From Sediminibacterium roseum (GTDB lineage Bacteria > Bacteroidota > Bacteroidia > Chitinophagales > Chitinophagaceae), in the NCBI RefSeq assembly GCF_009939005.1, contig NZ_JAACJS010000002.1:464646-528645 (forward strand): 64,000 bases of DNA, written 5' to 3'. Positions 48,782-64,000 of the stretch are shown here, piece after piece. The notes under the pieces are model-generated. The model was not told where the DNA came from, made no database searches, and saw only the letters and a program-made list of their open reading frames with translations. A program made the position numbers and the translations under genes. The first letter of the stretch is position 1. The number at the start of each line of letters is the position of its first letter.

Positions 48782-48953
48782 GGCCGGAAGTTAGGAAAAG
48801 TTTCAGTTGGTGGTATGGTTATTGAATTAATGAATGGTGAAGAACCCGGGTGTTCAAATCGTCAACTGATGCGTAACTTGGTGTATGCATACGGCAACCC
48901 ATTTACCACGGGCTGTTGATCATCCAACAAAAATAAATACACATAAACCAGAT

Positions 48954-49313
48954 ATGAAGAAGACAATAGTACTTGGCGCCAGCGATAACCCTTCGCGGTA
49001 TAGTTTTTTGGCAGTAGAGAAACTAAACCGTTATGGGCATCCTGTGGTGGCCATTGGAAAGAAAGAGGGACAGGTAGGTAATACGAAAGTGATCAAAGAA
49101 CGGCCGGATGAAAAGGATGTAGATACGGTTACCTTGTACCTGAACCCGCAATTGCAGAAACAGTATTACGACTATATCTTATCCCTCCACCCAAAGCGCG
49201 TCATCTTTAACCCGGGTACGGAGAACGACGAATTGGCTGCGCTCGCAAAAGAGAACGGGATCCAGCCCGTAGAGGCCTGTACGCTGGTGATGTTGGGCAC
49301 AGGACAGTATTGA
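48954..49313 (+). CDS. CoA-binding (Rossmann) domain protein
   Basis: A 119-residue single-domain protein. It begins MKKTIVLGASDNPSRYSF with the nucleotide-binding GASxxPxR motif; PVVAIGKKEGQVGNT and VIFNPGTENDEL follow as in the succinyl-CoA-ligase-like CoA-binding family. The ATG at 48954 gives the canonical N-terminus; the 23 codons upstream are spurious. Confidence 0.9.
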   Translation: MKKTIVLGASDNPSRYSFLAVEKLNRYGHPVVAIGKKEGQVGNTKVIKERPDEKDVDTVTLYLNPQLQKQYYDYILSLHPKRVIFNPGTENDELAALAKENGIQPVEACTLVMLGTGQY

Positions 49314-57237: not shown

Positions 57238-57480
57238 ATGACCAGAAGACAATTATACAATTATATTGTAAAGGAACACAAATGTACACAGCGTGTTTTG
57301 CCGGAAGGGCAGGCACGCTGTATTTATTTTGAGAATCCTAAGAATGGTAGGTATGGTACATTGAATACACCAATTGATGATAGAGAAATGTTACCTGCTA
57401 CTGTGACTGCAATTTGTTTGGCTTTAGGTATTCCCATACCCGCATCGCTTGAACCTCCTGTTACCTTTTCGCGTAATTAG
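57238..57480 (+). CDS. HicA-like toxin (divergent)
   Basis: An 80-residue protein directly after the HicB-like gene. An N-terminal helix (MTRRQLYNYIVKEHKC), a central strand pair (RCIYFENPKNGRYGTLNTPI) and a last helix TVTAICLALGI match the HicA layout, but the usual GSHH catalytic histidine is absent from the central strand. Either a divergent HicA-type mRNA interferase with another catalytic residue or an inactive member. The order antitoxin-toxin is the less common one for HicAB. Its stop overlaps the convergent transposase stop by three bases. Confidence 0.6.
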   Translation: MTRRQLYNYIVKEHKCTQRVLPEGQARCIYFENPKNGRYGTLNTPIDDREMLPATVTAICLALGIPIPASLEPPVTFSRN

Positions 57481-58478
57481 AATTTGTTTATTCTTTTAGC
57501 TTCTTTATCCAACACCCATTTAGGAACACTAGGCAATACTTCAACCTTCTTAGTCAATGTTTTATAGTCTATCCTGCGTTCCATATTTTTTAAGGATAGG
57601 GCAAAGCGATCTGCATCTTTAATTTTACGTGTGTTATAGCGATACGCAAATTCATCGCAATACCTCTGCATGTGTTTTGGTGATGCTTGATGATAAATAC
57701 CATAGATACCACGTTTGAGAGTTGAGAAGAACCCTTCTACACTGTTAGTATGAATATCACCGTTTACAAATTCATCTTTATCATGTCTGATAATCTCATG
57801 CGCTCCAAACATTTTATCTAATCCCCGGTATGCCATTAAGCTATCAGTCATAACAATACTAGGGCGTGTTACGTACTGGTTAACCATTTCTTTCAAAGTT
57901 TGCTTTTGGCTGTCTATTACAACTGCTTTTACTTCACCGTGTCTTTGCAGTAATCCCATAACGCCCGTCTTATTACCCGCGTGTCCTGATTCATAGCCTC
58001 CCTCTTTCTTGTATTGCTCGCGTACTTTCTTGTGCTTATTTTTCATCTTACCACCTACATACGTTTCATCTACTTCTACTATCCCTTCTAATTGTACCCC
58101 TACATTCTTCATCATTTCTCTAATACGGTGGATCATAAACCATGCAGTACGTTGAGTAACGCCTAAGTCTCTGCCTAGCTGGTGTGAAGAAATACCTTTC
58201 TTATGTGCTGTAACCACATACACCGCAGATAACCATTTAGTCAATGGAATACGGCTGCTTTCAAATATAGTTCCTACTGTAACGCTGTATTTCTTACCGC
58301 ATACGTCTTGACTTGCTCCACATTTAAACCTTTTACCGCTCTCAATAACATATGTTTTATCACTAAATCCACAGTAAGGACATACCGGGCAACCATCCCA
58401 ACGTTGAGTAATAAGATAGTCCCTACAAGCCTTTTCAGTAGGCATTGAAAGCAATAATTCGTGTAGATTCTTAAACAT
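57477..58478 (-). CDS. IS1595-family (ISXO2-like) transposase
   Basis: A 333-residue DDE-type transposase. An N-terminal zinc ribbon (CPVCPYCGFSDKTYVIESG, later CG..CGKKYSV) is followed by a helical DNA-binding region (LGRDLGVTQRTAWFMIHRIR) and the ISXO2-like catalytic core, with VEVDETYVGGK (first Asp), TDSLMAYRGL (second Asp) and HTNSVEGFFSTLKRGIYG (Asn/Glu end). Complete, no frameshift, so the element may be active. It is inside the inverted ends at 56098 and 59096. Confidence 0.93.
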   Translation of the reverse strand: MFKNLHELLLSMPTEKACRDYLITQRWDGCPVCPYCGFSDKTYVIESGKRFKCGASQDVCGKKYSVTVGTIFESSRIPLTKWLSAVYVVTAHKKGISSHQLGRDLGVTQRTAWFMIHRIREMMKNVGVQLEGIVEVDETYVGGKMKNKHKKVREQYKKEGGYESGHAGNKTGVMGLLQRHGEVKAVVIDSQKQTLKEMVNQYVTRPSIVMTDSLMAYRGLDKMFGAHEIIRHDKDEFVNGDIHTNSVEGFFSTLKRGIYGIYHQASPKHMQRYCDEFAYRYNTRKIKDADRFALSLKNMERRIDYKTLTKKVEVLPSVPKWVLDKEAKRINKF

Positions 58479-59068: not shown

Positions 59069-59173
59069 TTCTTCTCCCTTTACATGATTTAGTGCCCTCG
59101 AAGAGGACTTTGCGCAGCACGGACTTACTAATAATTTTTAATTGTGAAATGAACAATCCGGTGATGTGATTGG

Positions 59174-59690
59174 TCAACCCGCCCAACCTTCTCTGTCGAG
59201 ACTGCGAAATTGAATCGCCTCGGCTAAATGCTCCGGTTTGATCTCCTCACTCCCTGCAAGATTCGCGATCGTTCTGCTTACTTTTAAGATCCTGTCGTAT
59301 GCGCGGGCGCTTAAATTCAACCGCTCCATCGCTTTCTTCAAAAGCGCTTCACCAACAGGGCTGATGATGCACATTTCACGCAATTGTTTGCTGCTCATTT
59401 GTGCATTGCAAACGTGCCGGGCATTTCGGCATATCGTGCTGACTGGATCTCACGCGCACCTATCACCCTTTCGCGGATGGCTGATGAAGATTCGCTTTCA
59501 TTGTGATTGCTGAGTTCGCTGAACGCTACAGGCGTTACCTCCACATGCAGATCAATACGATCCAATAAAGGCCCCGATACTTTATTCAGATATTTCTGGA
59601 CCGCACCCGGCGGACAGGTGCATTCTTTCTCCGGATGGTTGTAAAACCCACAGGCGCATGGTTTTGTCGATACTGTGCAGGTACACCGCC
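59174..59690 (-). pseudogene. comM/yifB-like 3' fragment, copy 1 (frameshifted)
   Basis: C-terminal third of a Mg-chelatase-like AAA+ ATPase of the ComM/YifB family. The 5' piece reads KPCACGFYNHPEKECTCPPG, SGPLLDRIDLHVEVTP and so on. Near 59411 one base is missing, and the frame continues as SSKQLREMC...[20 protein letters not shown] to the normal end GWAG. The N-terminal two thirds (Walker motifs) are absent; a broken HTH gene on the other strand abuts. Non-functional. Confidence 0.85.
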
Positions 59691-59714
59691 CGCGTGCAAA
59701 AGCCTCATTTTCAA

Positions 59715-60104
59715 GGCTATCCCCAACACCCGAAAACGCTCGGGGATCATATCAGGAAGCGGAGAATGGATTTGGGGTTGTATTAAAGCTAAGCCGCAAA
59801 GTTGATGAATGTGTCAGAAGACTGCCTGTGTTATTGGGAGAATGGACGCAATGAACCGCGACTCTATCAATATCCCACGATCATTGCTTTTCTCGGCTAT
59901 TACCCCTTTGACCACGAAACGGAAACGTTTGGAGGGAAGATCAAGCGGTACAAATACGAGCATGGGTTGAGCAATTTGAAGCTCGCGAAGATGCTTGGTG
60001 TGGATGAAGGAACTGTTGCCAATTGGGAGCGAAATAAGTGCCTTCCTCACAAAGAAGCATTGAAAGGGTTACTTTCGACGTTAAACAAAAACGCCGCTCA
60101 TTGA
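59715..60104 (+). pseudogene. helix-turn-helix (XRE-like) gene with two nonsense codons, copy 1
   Basis: The frame GYPQHPKTLGDHIRKRRMDL is interrupted by TAA at 59784-59786 and 59790-59792 (each one change from CAA, in a stretch expected to read Q-x-Q). It then continues AAKLMNVSEDCLCYWENGRN through a second HTH (LAKMLGVDEGTVANWERNK) to a normal stop. A common Bacteroidota double-HTH protein. The C-terminal 100 codons remain open and could be translated from an internal start, but the first HTH is lost. Confidence 0.8.
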
Positions 60105-60117
60105 GCGGCGTTTTTTT
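60086..60117. terminator. bidirectional terminator between convergent genes
   Basis: AACGCCGCTCA / TGAGCGGCGTT stem with A and T tracts; the HTH stop codon is in the hairpin and the convergent gene's stop lies at its edge. Confidence 0.9.
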
Positions 60118-60854
60118 CATTGCTTAAATTCATCAAAGTATCGTCGTATTTCGGTAGAGATTTCTGTAATTTTTTCCAAAGTGTACAACGTTTTGCCAGC
60201 GTTCATTTTAAAGCGGTATTCTTTAAAATAATAATCGTAAGACTGAACATCTATCCGATATGCCTTGGTTTTCTTTGTGCTATCCAATTGGCGGCATAAC
60301 GTTTCATTAACGGTCTTCAACTTGTCTGAATAGTTGACTTTCCATGTTTCAATAAGAGCATTATCTTTTTTATGCCTGAATTCGTACACTTCATACAACC
60401 CATTTTTATCGCGTTTGGATTTCACAACCCTAACTTTGAAATTCAAAAAAATGGGATAGAGATCGGTTATCACAAACCATTGGTTTTTTAGTGCATCCTT
60501 TCTGCTAATTTGTTTTTTTGACGACAGATTTTGAGGGTTGAATTCGTAACCTAAATTTGTGACAGTATCACACACAAAAATTCGAAATCTAGTTTCCTGA
60601 ACTAATTTGTTATTTGGCCCTACGGAATCGAACTTGTAAGACATTTTATACAACTTGATAGTAGCGAGCGTGTAGATGTCAACTGTTCCGTTAGAATAAT
60701 GAATGATGCCAGTATCAGATTGAATGGGCAACCGCTCGCTGATTCTTACGCCACTAATATCCGAGTTGTGATTTGATTGTTGCGAGATCGCACATTCAGG
60801 ATATGCAAAAATGATTATGAAAATCGCAAGTAAAGTGTCATATGTAGTTCTCAC
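60117..60854 (-). CDS. exported protein of unknown function (variable family, member 1)
   Basis: A 245-residue protein starting with GTG (MRTTYDTLLAIFIIIFAYPECAISQ signal). The body is beta-rich and basic. The motif FVCDTVTNLGYEFN-x-LSSKK followed by K-DAL..QW has a counterpart in the protein encoded at 63131, and the end regions (RQLDSTKKTKAYRI) also align loosely, so the two are distant paralogues. It follows the frameshifted lipoprotein gene by 31 nt on the same strand. Confidence 0.7.
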   Translation of the reverse strand: MRTTYDTLLAIFIIIFAYPECAISQQSNHNSDISGVRISERLPIQSDTGIIHYSNGTVDIYTLATIKLYKMSYKFDSVGPNNKLVQETRFRIFVCDTVTNLGYEFNPQNLSSKKQISRKDALKNQWFVITDLYPIFLNFKVRVVKSKRDKNGLYEVYEFRHKKDNALIETWKVNYSDKLKTVNETLCRQLDSTKKTKAYRIDVQSYDYYFKEYRFKMNAGKTLYTLEKITEISTEIRRYFDEFKQ

Positions 60855-60885
60855 AATGAATGAATTTGATGTTTAATCTACGGTA

Positions 60886-62095
60886 TTAATAGCCAACATA
60901 CACCTGACCTGTACTTGAACCAGTGTAAACAGGTGAACCGCGTACACCAAACGCGCATGCAATAGTATAGTTAAAAGTCCAACTTCCCGCCACGTTTGCC
61001 TCAGTATTACCATTACCCAGCGTTCCGTTAGTAAACGTTCCAGTGAGGCTACCTGAGTGACACGTCGGAAATCCGTCAGGCGTTGATGTGTTTGTGAAAA
61101 TAGCATTTACAAATTTCCACGTTGGGTCATACACGCTGGTTTTGTATTGCTCACCATAGTAATTTGCAAAATATCTGTTGTACCAAACATTCGCCAGTTC
61201 GAAATTTGTAAAGTGCCATTTACCGGTATACGGTCTGTAGAGATAGCCGGAAACTGGGTCAACTTCAAATGACCCAATCGAAGTTGTATGCCATTCATTC
61301 ACGGACTCCTGAGAGACATTAGCAAACAGGTCGTCAACCTCTTCGTCGGTAAATCCACAAGCGGGAGGTGGTGGGGGTGGAGCGCCGTCACTGCCTCCTC
61401 CTCCACCCTCATAGCATTCGCCGCTATAATATAAAAACGTCACTTCTAAGATTCTATGTGTTTCTTGGTCGTATTCAATCAAAAACCATGCAAGGCACTC
61501 CTCGATAGGCGGAATATAATCTGATCGGGTGCCGCTGGCAGTTTTTGTCGCTTTGGCGAACGCCACTTTGACGTCTTGCCCTTTCGCTACACCCATTCCT
61601 TTGAAATTCCTAACCTTTCCGCCTACACCGCCAACCCACACCTTAATAGGATTGTTGGTAAGCGATCGAACCTTAATAGAATCTCCTGGGATCATGGAAT
61701 TGCCCGCGAACAAGGTCCGGATCGTTGTAATGTCTTTCGCTTCATAAATCCCATCGAATGTATATGATGAGTCATTTTTTACGAGGGCAAAAAATTGTTC
61801 TCGCCGTTGAACTGACATTGATTTCATCTTGATGAGAACTAAAGGCTTTTCGTTTGCTCTTTGTATTGTATAGCTTATTGCATAGTCTAGTCCTCCTTTC
61901 ATGAGAATGTCGCTTCGTTGTTTGTCTTTCGTGTTGGCAATTTTGCCGTACGACAAATACCATTGTTCGACGATCTTTTGGAAGCCAAGTACTTCGGGAT
62001 TTGATGTTGTTTGCAAATGCTCTTTTTTACAAGCAAAAAAAAACGCCTGTTGCTAGCGCGATAAGCAAAAGCAGTTTTGATGATAGTAGTTTCAT
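60886..62095 (-). pseudogene. lipoprotein gene with homopolymer frameshift in the signal peptide
   Basis: From the ATG at 62095 the frame gives MKLLSSKLLLLIALATGV and then stops after a run of nine T (A9 on the plus strand, 62035-62043). With eight T it would continue FFACKKEHLQTTSNPE, a normal lipobox and the 376-codon downstream frame. The mature part has a Gly5/Pro6 linker (GGGGGSDGAPPPPPPACG) and a C-terminal beta-rich domain with GSWTFNYTIACAF; no family recognised. The tract could be a phase-variation switch, a recent loss, or a sequencing error. Likely operon with the gene at 60117. Confidence 0.75.
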
Positions 62096-62291
62096 TGTTT
62101 TGGTTTAATGAAGAATGAATGTAAATCGAATAAAGAACTTAGCGTAGGGGTAACCCCCCTTTTTTTTATAATACGGGAAAAATACCCGGCTACTAGTTAA
62201 TTAGCAGAGAAACAGAGTCATGTGATCCAGAAATATGTATTATTCATTCTCCGCAGAGTGTCCTTAAAACCAACTATTTTTTGAACGTTCT

Positions 62292-62322
62292 CCGCAGACG
62301 TCTCCCGAAGGGGACTCTGCGG
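62292..62322. repeat. hairpin of the comM 3' module, copy 2
   Basis: CCGCAGA c GTC t CCC-GAA-GGG GAC TCTGCGG. It has the same architecture and bulges as the hairpin split by the IS, with paired (compensatory) base differences. It lies about 90 nt downstream of the second comM fragment's stop. Confidence 0.8.
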
Positions 62323-62411
62323 TCGGAGGGTTACACATGCCATTACGAACAAAACGATGCTTGTCGGTAACAGACGGATGAGAAAGGTCCGATTGGCGGG
62401 CAATGAGTTTA

Positions 62412-62635
62412 TCAACCCGCCCAACCCTCTCTATCCAGACTCCGAAACTGTATCGCCTCTGCAAGGTGCTCCGGCTTAATGTCATCGCTTCCGGCGAGAT
62501 CCGCAATTGTCCGGCTCACTTTCAAAATGCGATCGTACGCACGCGCACTAAGATTCAATCGTTCCATTGCTTTTTTTAAAAGCGCTTCGCCAACAGAACT
62601 GATCTCGCATATTTCACGTAGCTGCTTACTGCTGC
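62412..62635 (-). pseudogene. comM/yifB-like 3' fragment, copy 2
   Basis: The last 73 codons of a ComM/YifB gene ([18 protein letters not shown] ... GWAG). Compared with copy 1 it differs at only six residues but at many synonymous positions. The fragment begins at the same point as copy 1's intact C-terminal frame and is fused to an HTH remnant. Confidence 0.85.
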
Positions 62636-62753
62636 GAACATGCTGAGTATTGATGAAGGAACAGTCGCAAAATGGGCGTCAAATAAGACTTTACCTTTAG
62701 CACGAACTATTGGAAAAGTTTCCATTATCCTAAGTTTAAATACCACCTATTAA
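62634..62753 (+). pseudogene. helix-turn-helix gene remnant, copy 2
   Basis: [20 protein letters not shown] corresponds to the second HTH of copy 1 (KMLGVDEGTVANWERNKCLP) and runs to a stop inside the following terminator. Everything upstream of this helix is missing. Confidence 0.75.
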
Positions 62754-62766
62754 GGGTGGTATTTTT
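62739..62766 (+). terminator. intrinsic terminator after HTH remnant
   Basis: AATACCACC / GGTGGTATT stem, 7-nt loop, then T residues; it overlaps the remnant's stop codon. Confidence 0.85.
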
Positions 62767-63130
62767 CCAAATCCGCAGAGATGCGATTGTTGATTGAGCT
62801 GTGGCAGCCGATGAAATATGTTTGCGTAGCTAGTGATCTATCTATAATTAATATCAACCACCCATTATTTTCATTGCAAATAAAAAAAGGGTTTTCACCC
62901 CTTTTTCAATTCAAAGCATTGCGATATTTTCAATCAATAAAAGTTGTCACCCTCACCAATCTCGGTACAACGATAAAACCCAATAAACTATCAGCACAAG
63001 GATCGATAAGCTATAATGCGATATTTTACATTACTTGTTTAAATAACTTGCAATATGCAAAGCCAAAATCGATACGTCAACGCCAACCCTTGTTGCCAGT
63101 TATTCAGTGAATCCTTGATTCAACAGAACT
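62767..63130. other. AT-rich intergenic stretch with a terminator-like hairpin
   Basis: No convincing gene: the 109-codon frame at 62781-63110 has no recognisable content and runs through a hairpin. That hairpin, AAAAAGGG / CCCTTTTT (62884-62906, 7-nt loop), could terminate in both directions. Confidence 0.55.
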
Positions 63131-63859
63131 ATGAAAATTTCATTTTTTATCGCGTCGTTATTGTTTAGTGCGATTATTCTAGGACAGTCACACACTCTCA
63201 AATTGCGTTGTATAAAAGGGACGTCTATTTTTCCTAATCTCACTCCCAGCGGTAAAATAAATGGCGAAGAATACAGTACGATCCGAATCTATGAATATGG
63301 AAAAAAACGTCTGTATGATCTTGAATATGATGAGCGTGTCATTGATGGAGGTGTAATTAAATCTACCAAGACTGTCAGACACTGGATAACGTTCTATGTT
63401 GACAGCGCATACGGATATGACTATAACCTATCGTCTAAAAAAAGAATGCGGGTTAAGCTCGATTCGGCTATGCAACGAGAATGGGTATATTCAAATAATT
63501 TGTATTCAGGTGTCTCTGCAAACCGGAGCGTTTTAACTTCATCGAAACGAAATTCTGTAAGTGGAACTTTGGTCGAAGAATATTCAATACTGAGTCCATC
63601 AGATTCATCTGAGGTAATGAAACAAATATTCTTTTACTCAACTCACGTATTGAAAAACGTCTCGATCAGTTTATCGAAGAAGCTGGATAGTTTAAAGCAA
63701 ATGAGACTATATAAAGCGCAGACAATAGTATTACCCAGAAAAATCCCAGGAAAGGGTATAACGCTGCCAACTTTCAGAACCGAGTTTGCTTTGCAAGAAA
63801 TTGTCCCTCCAAATAGTACTCAAGTGCTATTACACTTGTCAAAATTGAATGTTCAGTAA
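63131..63859 (+). CDS. exported protein of unknown function (variable family, member 2)
   Basis: A 242-residue protein with a signal peptide (MKISFFIASLLFSAIILGQ). The middle reads ITFYVDSAYGYDYNLSSKKR then KLDSAM..EWV, aligning loosely with the protein encoded at 60117. Later, SGTLVEEYSIL and KKLDSLKQMRLYKAQTIV also correspond. No known domain. The gene is AT-rich like the rest of the region and is followed by a terminator. Confidence 0.7.
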   Translation: MKISFFIASLLFSAIILGQSHTLKLRCIKGTSIFPNLTPSGKINGEEYSTIRIYEYGKKRLYDLEYDERVIDGGVIKSTKTVRHWITFYVDSAYGYDYNLSSKKRMRVKLDSAMQREWVYSNNLYSGVSANRSVLTSSKRNSVSGTLVEEYSILSPSDSSEVMKQIFFYSTHVLKNVSISLSKKLDSLKQMRLYKAQTIVLPRKIPGKGITLPTFRTEFALQEIVPPNSTQVLLHLSKLNVQ

Positions 63860-63903: not shown

Positions 63904-64000
63904 TTACATATATTCTTGAGCATCCTGAGAGTTCGCTCGCCAGTTCGCTAACTATCGTACTCTCTTTTGCTTTCAATTTTTATTTCTCTGCATAGTCTCC

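Follow-up and report, generated by a model that had tools for sequence, protein, structure and literature searches.

Why does the genome of Sediminibacterium roseum hold several severed 3' ends of comM close to an intact copy of the gene, and why do they adjoin remnants of a helix-turn-helix (HTH) gene? The stretch studied here, called the window, is 64,000 nucleotides long (C8:464646-528645) and lies within a 4.5 Mb genome. Two truncated comM 3' ends are found in it (A and B), a third (C) and the intact comM (D) follow beyond its end, and one more piece (E) lies far off; the positions are collected in Table 1. Handles beginning with G, C and L denote genomes, contigs and loci. The first-pass annotation had described the repeated unit as an independent "recurrent module", and it is better read as an element junction, made up of an HTH gene, an attachment site and a displaced comM 3' end. 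We consider it likely that the unit is the scar of the HTH-side junction (attR) of serine-recombinase elements, which were inserted into comM and lost, and that recombination between the scars and the intact gene followed.

The order of comM 3' end, HTH remnant and terminator had been reported twice, and both occurrences were confirmed: A and B each face a + strand HTH remnant that ends in a strong terminator hairpin, and C, D and E were found as further copies. The related intact comM is D, which lies 3.6 kb beyond the end of the window. Fragments A and C form a pair made by recent duplication or conversion. They are 96% identical over 1,026 nt, a stretch with the comM part, the greater part of the HTH remnant and, near codon 459, a deletion of one base that both carry; their divergence is concentrated in the last 100 bases. 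The identity to D is 90-91% over ~500 nt for A and C, and 91% over 403 nt for B. In A and C the comM homology begins at codon 377, head to head with the decayed HTH gene, while the true break of B is near codon 464, where the fragment is joined to what is left of the HTH gene, its final ~35 codons. The two fragments in the window had been thought to begin at nearly the same codon (SSKQLRE). A new frame does open there in A, but the homology of A reaches codon 377 and B really breaks at ~464, so the likeness has two causes, a frameshift in A (the deletion common to A and C) and a real break in B. A hairpin had also been noted before each comM end; the one at B folds strongly (-27.4 kcal/mol, z -3.7), whereas shuffled sequence folds as well as the one at A (-3.2 kcal/mol, z +0.9). 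Near fragment A there is an IS1595-family transposase gene (PF12762, window 57477-58478).

The same breakpoint was observed in relatives when 61 genomes of the genus were searched with the comM C-terminus and the loci then read. Pieces that start at codon 373-377 are A, C, two in G010 (m1 and m2) and one each in G060, G050 and G035, and a second G060 piece, on C452, likewise starts near this position. In G010 m1, G060, G050, A and C the HTH gene faces comM head to head at this one position; the copies of G010, G060 and G050 are intact (145-147 aa), and the G035 contig stops just past the junction. G010 m2 and the G060 piece on C452 have different upstream flanks and the same place of breakage. 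With the HTH protein of G060 as query, the family was present in four of four genomes with comM scars and in none of four scar-free genomes, and six of its seven copies adjoin a comM fragment. The exception is a copy on C468 of G060 (L242:1380-1520), without adjoining comM and preceded by ATGAATCCCCA, perhaps an insertion at a second site. The comM parts are open in G010 m1, G060, G050 and G035, which prompted the idea of a mini-ComM gene under selection. It was set aside, because the occupied sites described below explain the start at codon 377, and a frame may be open simply because the fragment is young.

Among 244 family genomes with a completeness of at least 90%, 20 besides G000 had two or more comM matches. 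We searched 23 genomes again, 19 of those 20 (G010 was left out) and four with weak matches. Element sequence was found exactly at the codon 376-377 cut in nine of the 23, and none was seen at the cut in the other 14; nine occupied genomes is a lower bound, as 23 of the 244 were looked at again. Both halves of comM lie on one contig in three of them, with inserts of 42.4 kb (G124), 47.4 kb (G246) and 20.0 kb (G245), and on different contigs in G278, G238 and G074. The occupied junction was found on one side only in G284 and G083 (5') and in G102 (3'); in G083, another contig also holds an uninterrupted comM stretch. G135, which is cut at the same codon, was excluded from the count since both contigs end there. 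The suggestion that comM is an insertion target of large elements is thus correct for relatives in the family, where the insertion is site-specific at codon 376/377. A large serine recombinase of ~500 aa adjoins comM in eight of the nine occupied genomes, on the 5' side in all except G124, and an HTH gene adjoins it in seven. The two recombinases that were scanned both carry PF00239 and PF07508 (Resolvase and Recombinase) above the cut-off, and the closest solved relatives by sequence include the TP901-1 integrase and SPbeta YokA. Four further proteins are common to the three spanned elements: another serine recombinase, an ATPase of ~1000 aa, a TraG-like ATPase and an ArdC-like protein. No phage genes were named in the open reading frame (ORF) lists of the occupied elements, which were not searched systematically for them.

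It was also possible to compare the junctions with the empty site, which reads ATGAAYCC-TG-YCC... in intact comM genes. The TG is present at all eight 5' junctions and all seven 3' junctions of occupied comM. At six of the seven HTH-side junctions (G245 was missed) the terminal inverted repeat GGNAAAAGGCAACGCA was found with 0-1 mismatch, and it is exact at the junctions of G060 and G035, which belong to the same genus as the window. One match with 0-1 mismatch lies away from a junction, and matches with 2-3 mismatches are common background. As GGNAAAAGGCAACGCA is unrecognised at A and C yet exact in G060 and G035, decay is assumed, and the two are treated as presumed or decayed scars of attR. 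The sites attB and attP of large serine recombinases have only a short core in common. The relatives' elements agree with this, as far as can be judged from their sequence: the core shared by the putative attB and attP is short, and candidate attL and attR can be deduced against the empty sites. This would give a serine recombinase group of Chitinophagaceae a defined target, together with a deduced attachment site; most of the named loci nearest by comM belong to this family. Furthermore, in the main comM of G010 (L067:10659-10886) codons 301-376 are inverted in place. One end of the inversion is the insertion point and the other is at CA, the reverse of TG; it could be an old event made by a recombinase.

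The divergence among the copies was estimated by the Nei-Gojobori method as synonymous (dS) and non-synonymous (dN) values. For A-C dS was 0.04 and dN 0, for D-A 0.49 and 0.019, and for D-B 0.60 and 0.029; between A and B dN was 0.066 and the synonymous sites were saturated. The low dN/dS of D against A, B and C suits fragments whose divergence took place mostly while the genes still worked. The proposal was borne out that A/C and B are the ends of formerly functional comM genes and were not copied recently from a single dead one. In codons 465-537, 50 sites separate A from B. D follows A at 17 of 18 sites through codon 492 and B at 29 of 32 from codon 493, a break that none of 20,000 permutations reproduced (maximum chi-square 34.7). 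The downstream flank of D is also B-like (93%, 184 columns), with the A/C-type repeat further out. D is a mosaic, first A/C-like and then B-like, which implies that the comM copies recombine. Gene conversion of A towards D at the codon level was considered and dropped, as C equals D at three of the four A-C differences in the searched comM part, which is too few.

A course of events can be proposed from these observations. A large serine recombinase would insert its element at one point of comM, between ...ATGAAYCC and TGC at codon 376/377, and the insertion would sever the last 161 codons and set the terminal HTH gene of the element head to head with them. We infer that A and C, which are decayed, and B, which has no junction left, are such element junctions, and that at least two insertions took place in the lineage, one of A/C type and one of B type. 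comM would have been restored as an intact upstream copy, possibly with incoming DNA from a comM-intact relative as the source, and the recombinase and most element genes would have been lost, with scars of HTH gene and comM 3' end left behind. The comM 3' ends are nearly identical, and homologous recombination between them may then have duplicated or converted the scars (A and C) and made D a mosaic. Three further genomes, G251, G116 and, weakly, G152, have extra comM pieces beside an intact comM. In the first of these the intact comM is followed by a decayed piece that ends at codon ~377 and, 21 kb on, by codons 419-537, which looks like an interrupted comM copy beside a restored one.

Several observations weigh against this explanation. 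The TG begins a conserved Cys codon, so that part of its constancy is to be expected. GGNAAAAGGCAACGCA was seen at four of the eight recombinase-side junctions, two with one and two with three mismatches, and at A, C, G010 and G050 nothing within three mismatches was found. The codon-377 junction is wholly lacking in B, which to judge by the sequence would be consistent with a deletion across the junction, and the intact comM D shows no trace of attL. A close recombinase is absent from the S. roseum genome, where the best match, with 26% identity, is among two distant serine recombinases; neither ArdC, the TraG-like gene nor the ~1000-aa element gene occurs in its comM interval. In the G124 element the recombinase and HTH ends are swapped (L119:1208-2707, L121:3227-3664). 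An extra comM 3' end beside an intact comM is also rare, found in one of 80 named loci (L193, Sediminibacterium magnilacihabitans).

The gene order upstream of comM is conserved, and a CoA-binding gene (window 48885-49313) recurs downstream. The distance from comM to this gene is 18.3 kb here, 9.2 kb in G047, 8.5 kb in G021, 7.9 kb in G010 and 3.4 kb in G036, and 0.8-4.3 kb in the six of 80 named loci where the CoA-binding gene was found downstream. Such an interval, from 0.8 to 18.3 kb among relatives, indicates a hotspot. The contents also differ, with a C39-peptidase ABC exporter in G010 and a 1123-aa beta-helix protein in G060. The annotation's variable-gene hotspot therefore stands in so far as the region behind comM differs strongly among relatives and the cargo differs between species, but one cargo family fills all three S. 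roseum intervals.

Table 1. Positions of comM copies, HTH remnants, flanks and cargo genes (window coordinates unless a contig or locus is named).
Feature	Position	Strand	Remarks
comM 3' fragment A, codons 377-537	59174-59658	-	sequence match; one base deleted near codon 459
comM 3' fragment B, codons ~464-537	62412-62633	-	sequence match to D
comM 3' fragment C	C8:528769-529265		starts 124 bases beyond window end; sequence match
Flank of comM fragment C, start	63978-64000	.	C itself just outside window
Intact comM D, 537 aa	C8:532261-533874	-	3.6 kb beyond window
comM piece E	C8:316764-316956		207 kb away from the array
attR-like junction of A	59657-59690	-	TG at 59657-59658, where comM homology stops and element-side sequence starts; terminal repeat decayed
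Decayed HTH gene, two in-frame stops	59673-60101	+	67-68% identity to intact 145-aa HTH at same position in G060; listed ORF 59802-60104
Terminator hairpin after A-side HTH remnant	60084-60117	+	-19.9 kcal/mol, z -5.4
HTH remnant, last ~35 codons, fused directly to comM fragment B	62634-62744	+	sequence match
Terminator hairpin after B-side HTH remnant	62738-62765	+	-13.8 kcal/mol, z -4.4
Flank behind fragment A, part of dispersed REP-like palindromic repeat, common to C and D	59097-59143	.	91% identity to D flank over 47 nt
3' flank of fragment B, the same as that of D, with strong hairpin	62232-62411	.	93% over 184 columns
Two-gene lipoprotein operon family	60117-62046, 62946-63859; L004:7716-9706
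Cargo gene 2, 245 aa, secreted-type N-terminus	60117-60854	-	possible LolA/RseB-like fold
Cargo gene 1, 376-aa listed ORF 60886-62016	60886-62046	-	homology extends upstream to lipobox-like FACKK
Cargo gene 1 remnant, C-terminal ~55 codons	62946-63106	+	inverted vs other operons
Cargo gene 2, 242 aa, interval B-C	63131-63859	+	inverted; 66% identity to gene 2 between C and D

The intervals A-B and C-D hold one two-gene operon each (gene 1 of 376 and 414 aa, gene 2 of 245 and 241 aa), and gene 1 of the two full operons has 25% identity. None of the cargo proteins of the three intervals had a Pfam match above the cut-off. The predicted structure of gene 2 gave LolA as the top Foldseek match (E 9e-6, TM 0.28-0.32), with a best VIA Z of 7.5, under the threshold of 8, and the model of gene 1 was poor (pLDDT 51). 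Gene 1 was found in three and gene 2 in four of the 61 genus genomes. A related operon adjoins comM in G035 and G050, and a gene-2 relative adjoins the comM fragment in L193; of the four gene-2 places outside the array in the 61 genomes, one adjoins comM. The link of the cargo genes to comM outside the S. roseum genome is weak. Gene 1 was tied to a G050 protein by profile comparison (probability 91), but the second genes were tied only via iterated search in a comM-biased ORF set and not by direct comparison. Beside the comM 3' end of G050 there is a 671-aa lipoprotein-like protein without a Pfam match (L074:5837-7852). Its N-terminal lipobox, linker and distinct C-terminus presumably resemble those of polymorphic effectors.

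Hairpins of the comM type also occur elsewhere, and a query with the D flank matched 15 places in its own genome. On C7 they come directly after a gene resembling the transposases associated with repetitive extragenic palindromes (REP), here called RAYT-like (L032:6105-6856). Another RAYT-like gene follows E (C8:316764-317605; L030:8764-9606). These genes reached 63 and 71 bits by NCBIfam, where the cut-off is 80, and a Pfam search of the genome for Y1_Tnp (PF01797) gave no match. Cargo gene 2 showed no relation to the 245-aa protein neighbouring E.

Could the array have arisen without a site-specific recombinase? By plain tandem duplication, a deletion would have fused comM with a neighbouring HTH gene, and the dead block would have been copied by unequal crossing-over. 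This fits the 96% identity of A and C over 1 kb including the frameshift and a S. roseum genome without the recombinase, and since all HTH-type junctions look homologous a single founding event is possible. We find it improbable nevertheless, as the same codon hosts large recombinase-bearing elements in other genera, and G010 m2 and the C452 piece of G060, with their other upstream flanks, and the G010 inversion all break at the same place. Activity of REP and RAYT sequences could conceivably have dispersed comM 3' ends along with the hairpins, and the two RAYT-like genes, beside hairpins and directly after E, would suit this. But most hairpin copies are without comM sequence, and the codon-377 breakpoint and the HTH gene are left unexplained. 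In G036 a RAYT-like gene, 49% identical to the neighbour of E, lies 21 bases after the intact comM, so E and its neighbour may go back to a comM end that was displaced long ago. Dispersal by REP and RAYT sequences is a very improbable origin of the array. We give hardly any credence to a Tn7-like transposon of the AbaR/Tn6022 type. Such islands commonly disrupt comM in Acinetobacter (PMC7253598), but the junctions in occupied relatives carry large serine recombinases, the elements there being described from listed ORFs and six named proteins, with no search aimed at Tn7.

The array may instead be under selection as a set of cassettes, with the comM 3' ends as homology handles for gain, loss and swap of effector-like lipoprotein operons. 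The modules are 90-96% identical and the operons between them 25% identical as protein, D has taken its 3' part and flank from B, and the interval behind comM varies in length as described above, with related operons or genes next to comM in G035, G050 and L193. However, no strain comparison shows an exchanged cassette, three of the four gene-2 places outside the array lie away from comM, and scars plus ordinary recombination give the same pattern without selection; selected cassettes are therefore rather unlikely. Insertion and loss of serine-recombinase elements, followed by recombination of the scars, remains the explanation we prefer. An extension of it, which we put forward only tentatively, is that comM is a renewable landing site, where cycles of insertion and restoration leave 3' ends as recombination handles that stack and reshuffle fast-diverging lipoprotein operons, and do so behind a gene that itself aids the integration of foreign DNA. 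If the old element junctions beside a recombined, intact comM are what they seem to be, they would record, as fossils do, that comM was lost and regained repeatedly, and the idea of its regain by recombination could be tested through strain comparison. ComM is a helicase for the integration of divergent DNA.

The Mg-chelatase genes that are hit by serine-recombinase elements in the literature are comM homologues. Of the large serine recombinases predicted to be site-specific, 12.4% target homologues of Mg-chelatase/ATP-dependent protease (Durrant et al. 2022, PMC10083194). The elements described there are similar in having an integrase with Resolvase and Recombinase domains by the junction and in their insertion into comM-type coding sequence, but they are single integrated elements, whereas stacked, recombinase-free and recombining scars are found here behind an intact comM. 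The Wolbachia phage sr1WO has a serine recombinase, lies in a magnesium chelatase gene whose halves flank it, and carries HTH_XRE genes at its 3' end (PMC9203015); the comM elements of the relatives differ from this phage in carrying ArdC and TraG-like genes. The AbaR/Tn6022-type islands of Acinetobacter also have comM as their preferred target and disrupt the gene, but with a transposon backbone and no serine recombinase, and stacked 3' ends are not described in the accessible text (PMC7253598). In A. baumannii recovery of an interrupted comM by recombination has been proposed, and the reason for its frequent targeting by mobile elements is discussed as an open question (PMC11472951). Recovery was no more frequent than chance there, while the scars beside a mosaic comM suggest restoration here. 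Serine-recombinase elements in comM and Mg-chelatase genes are thus already known, and the unusual part of the S. roseum locus is the stacked scars behind a restored, mosaic comM.

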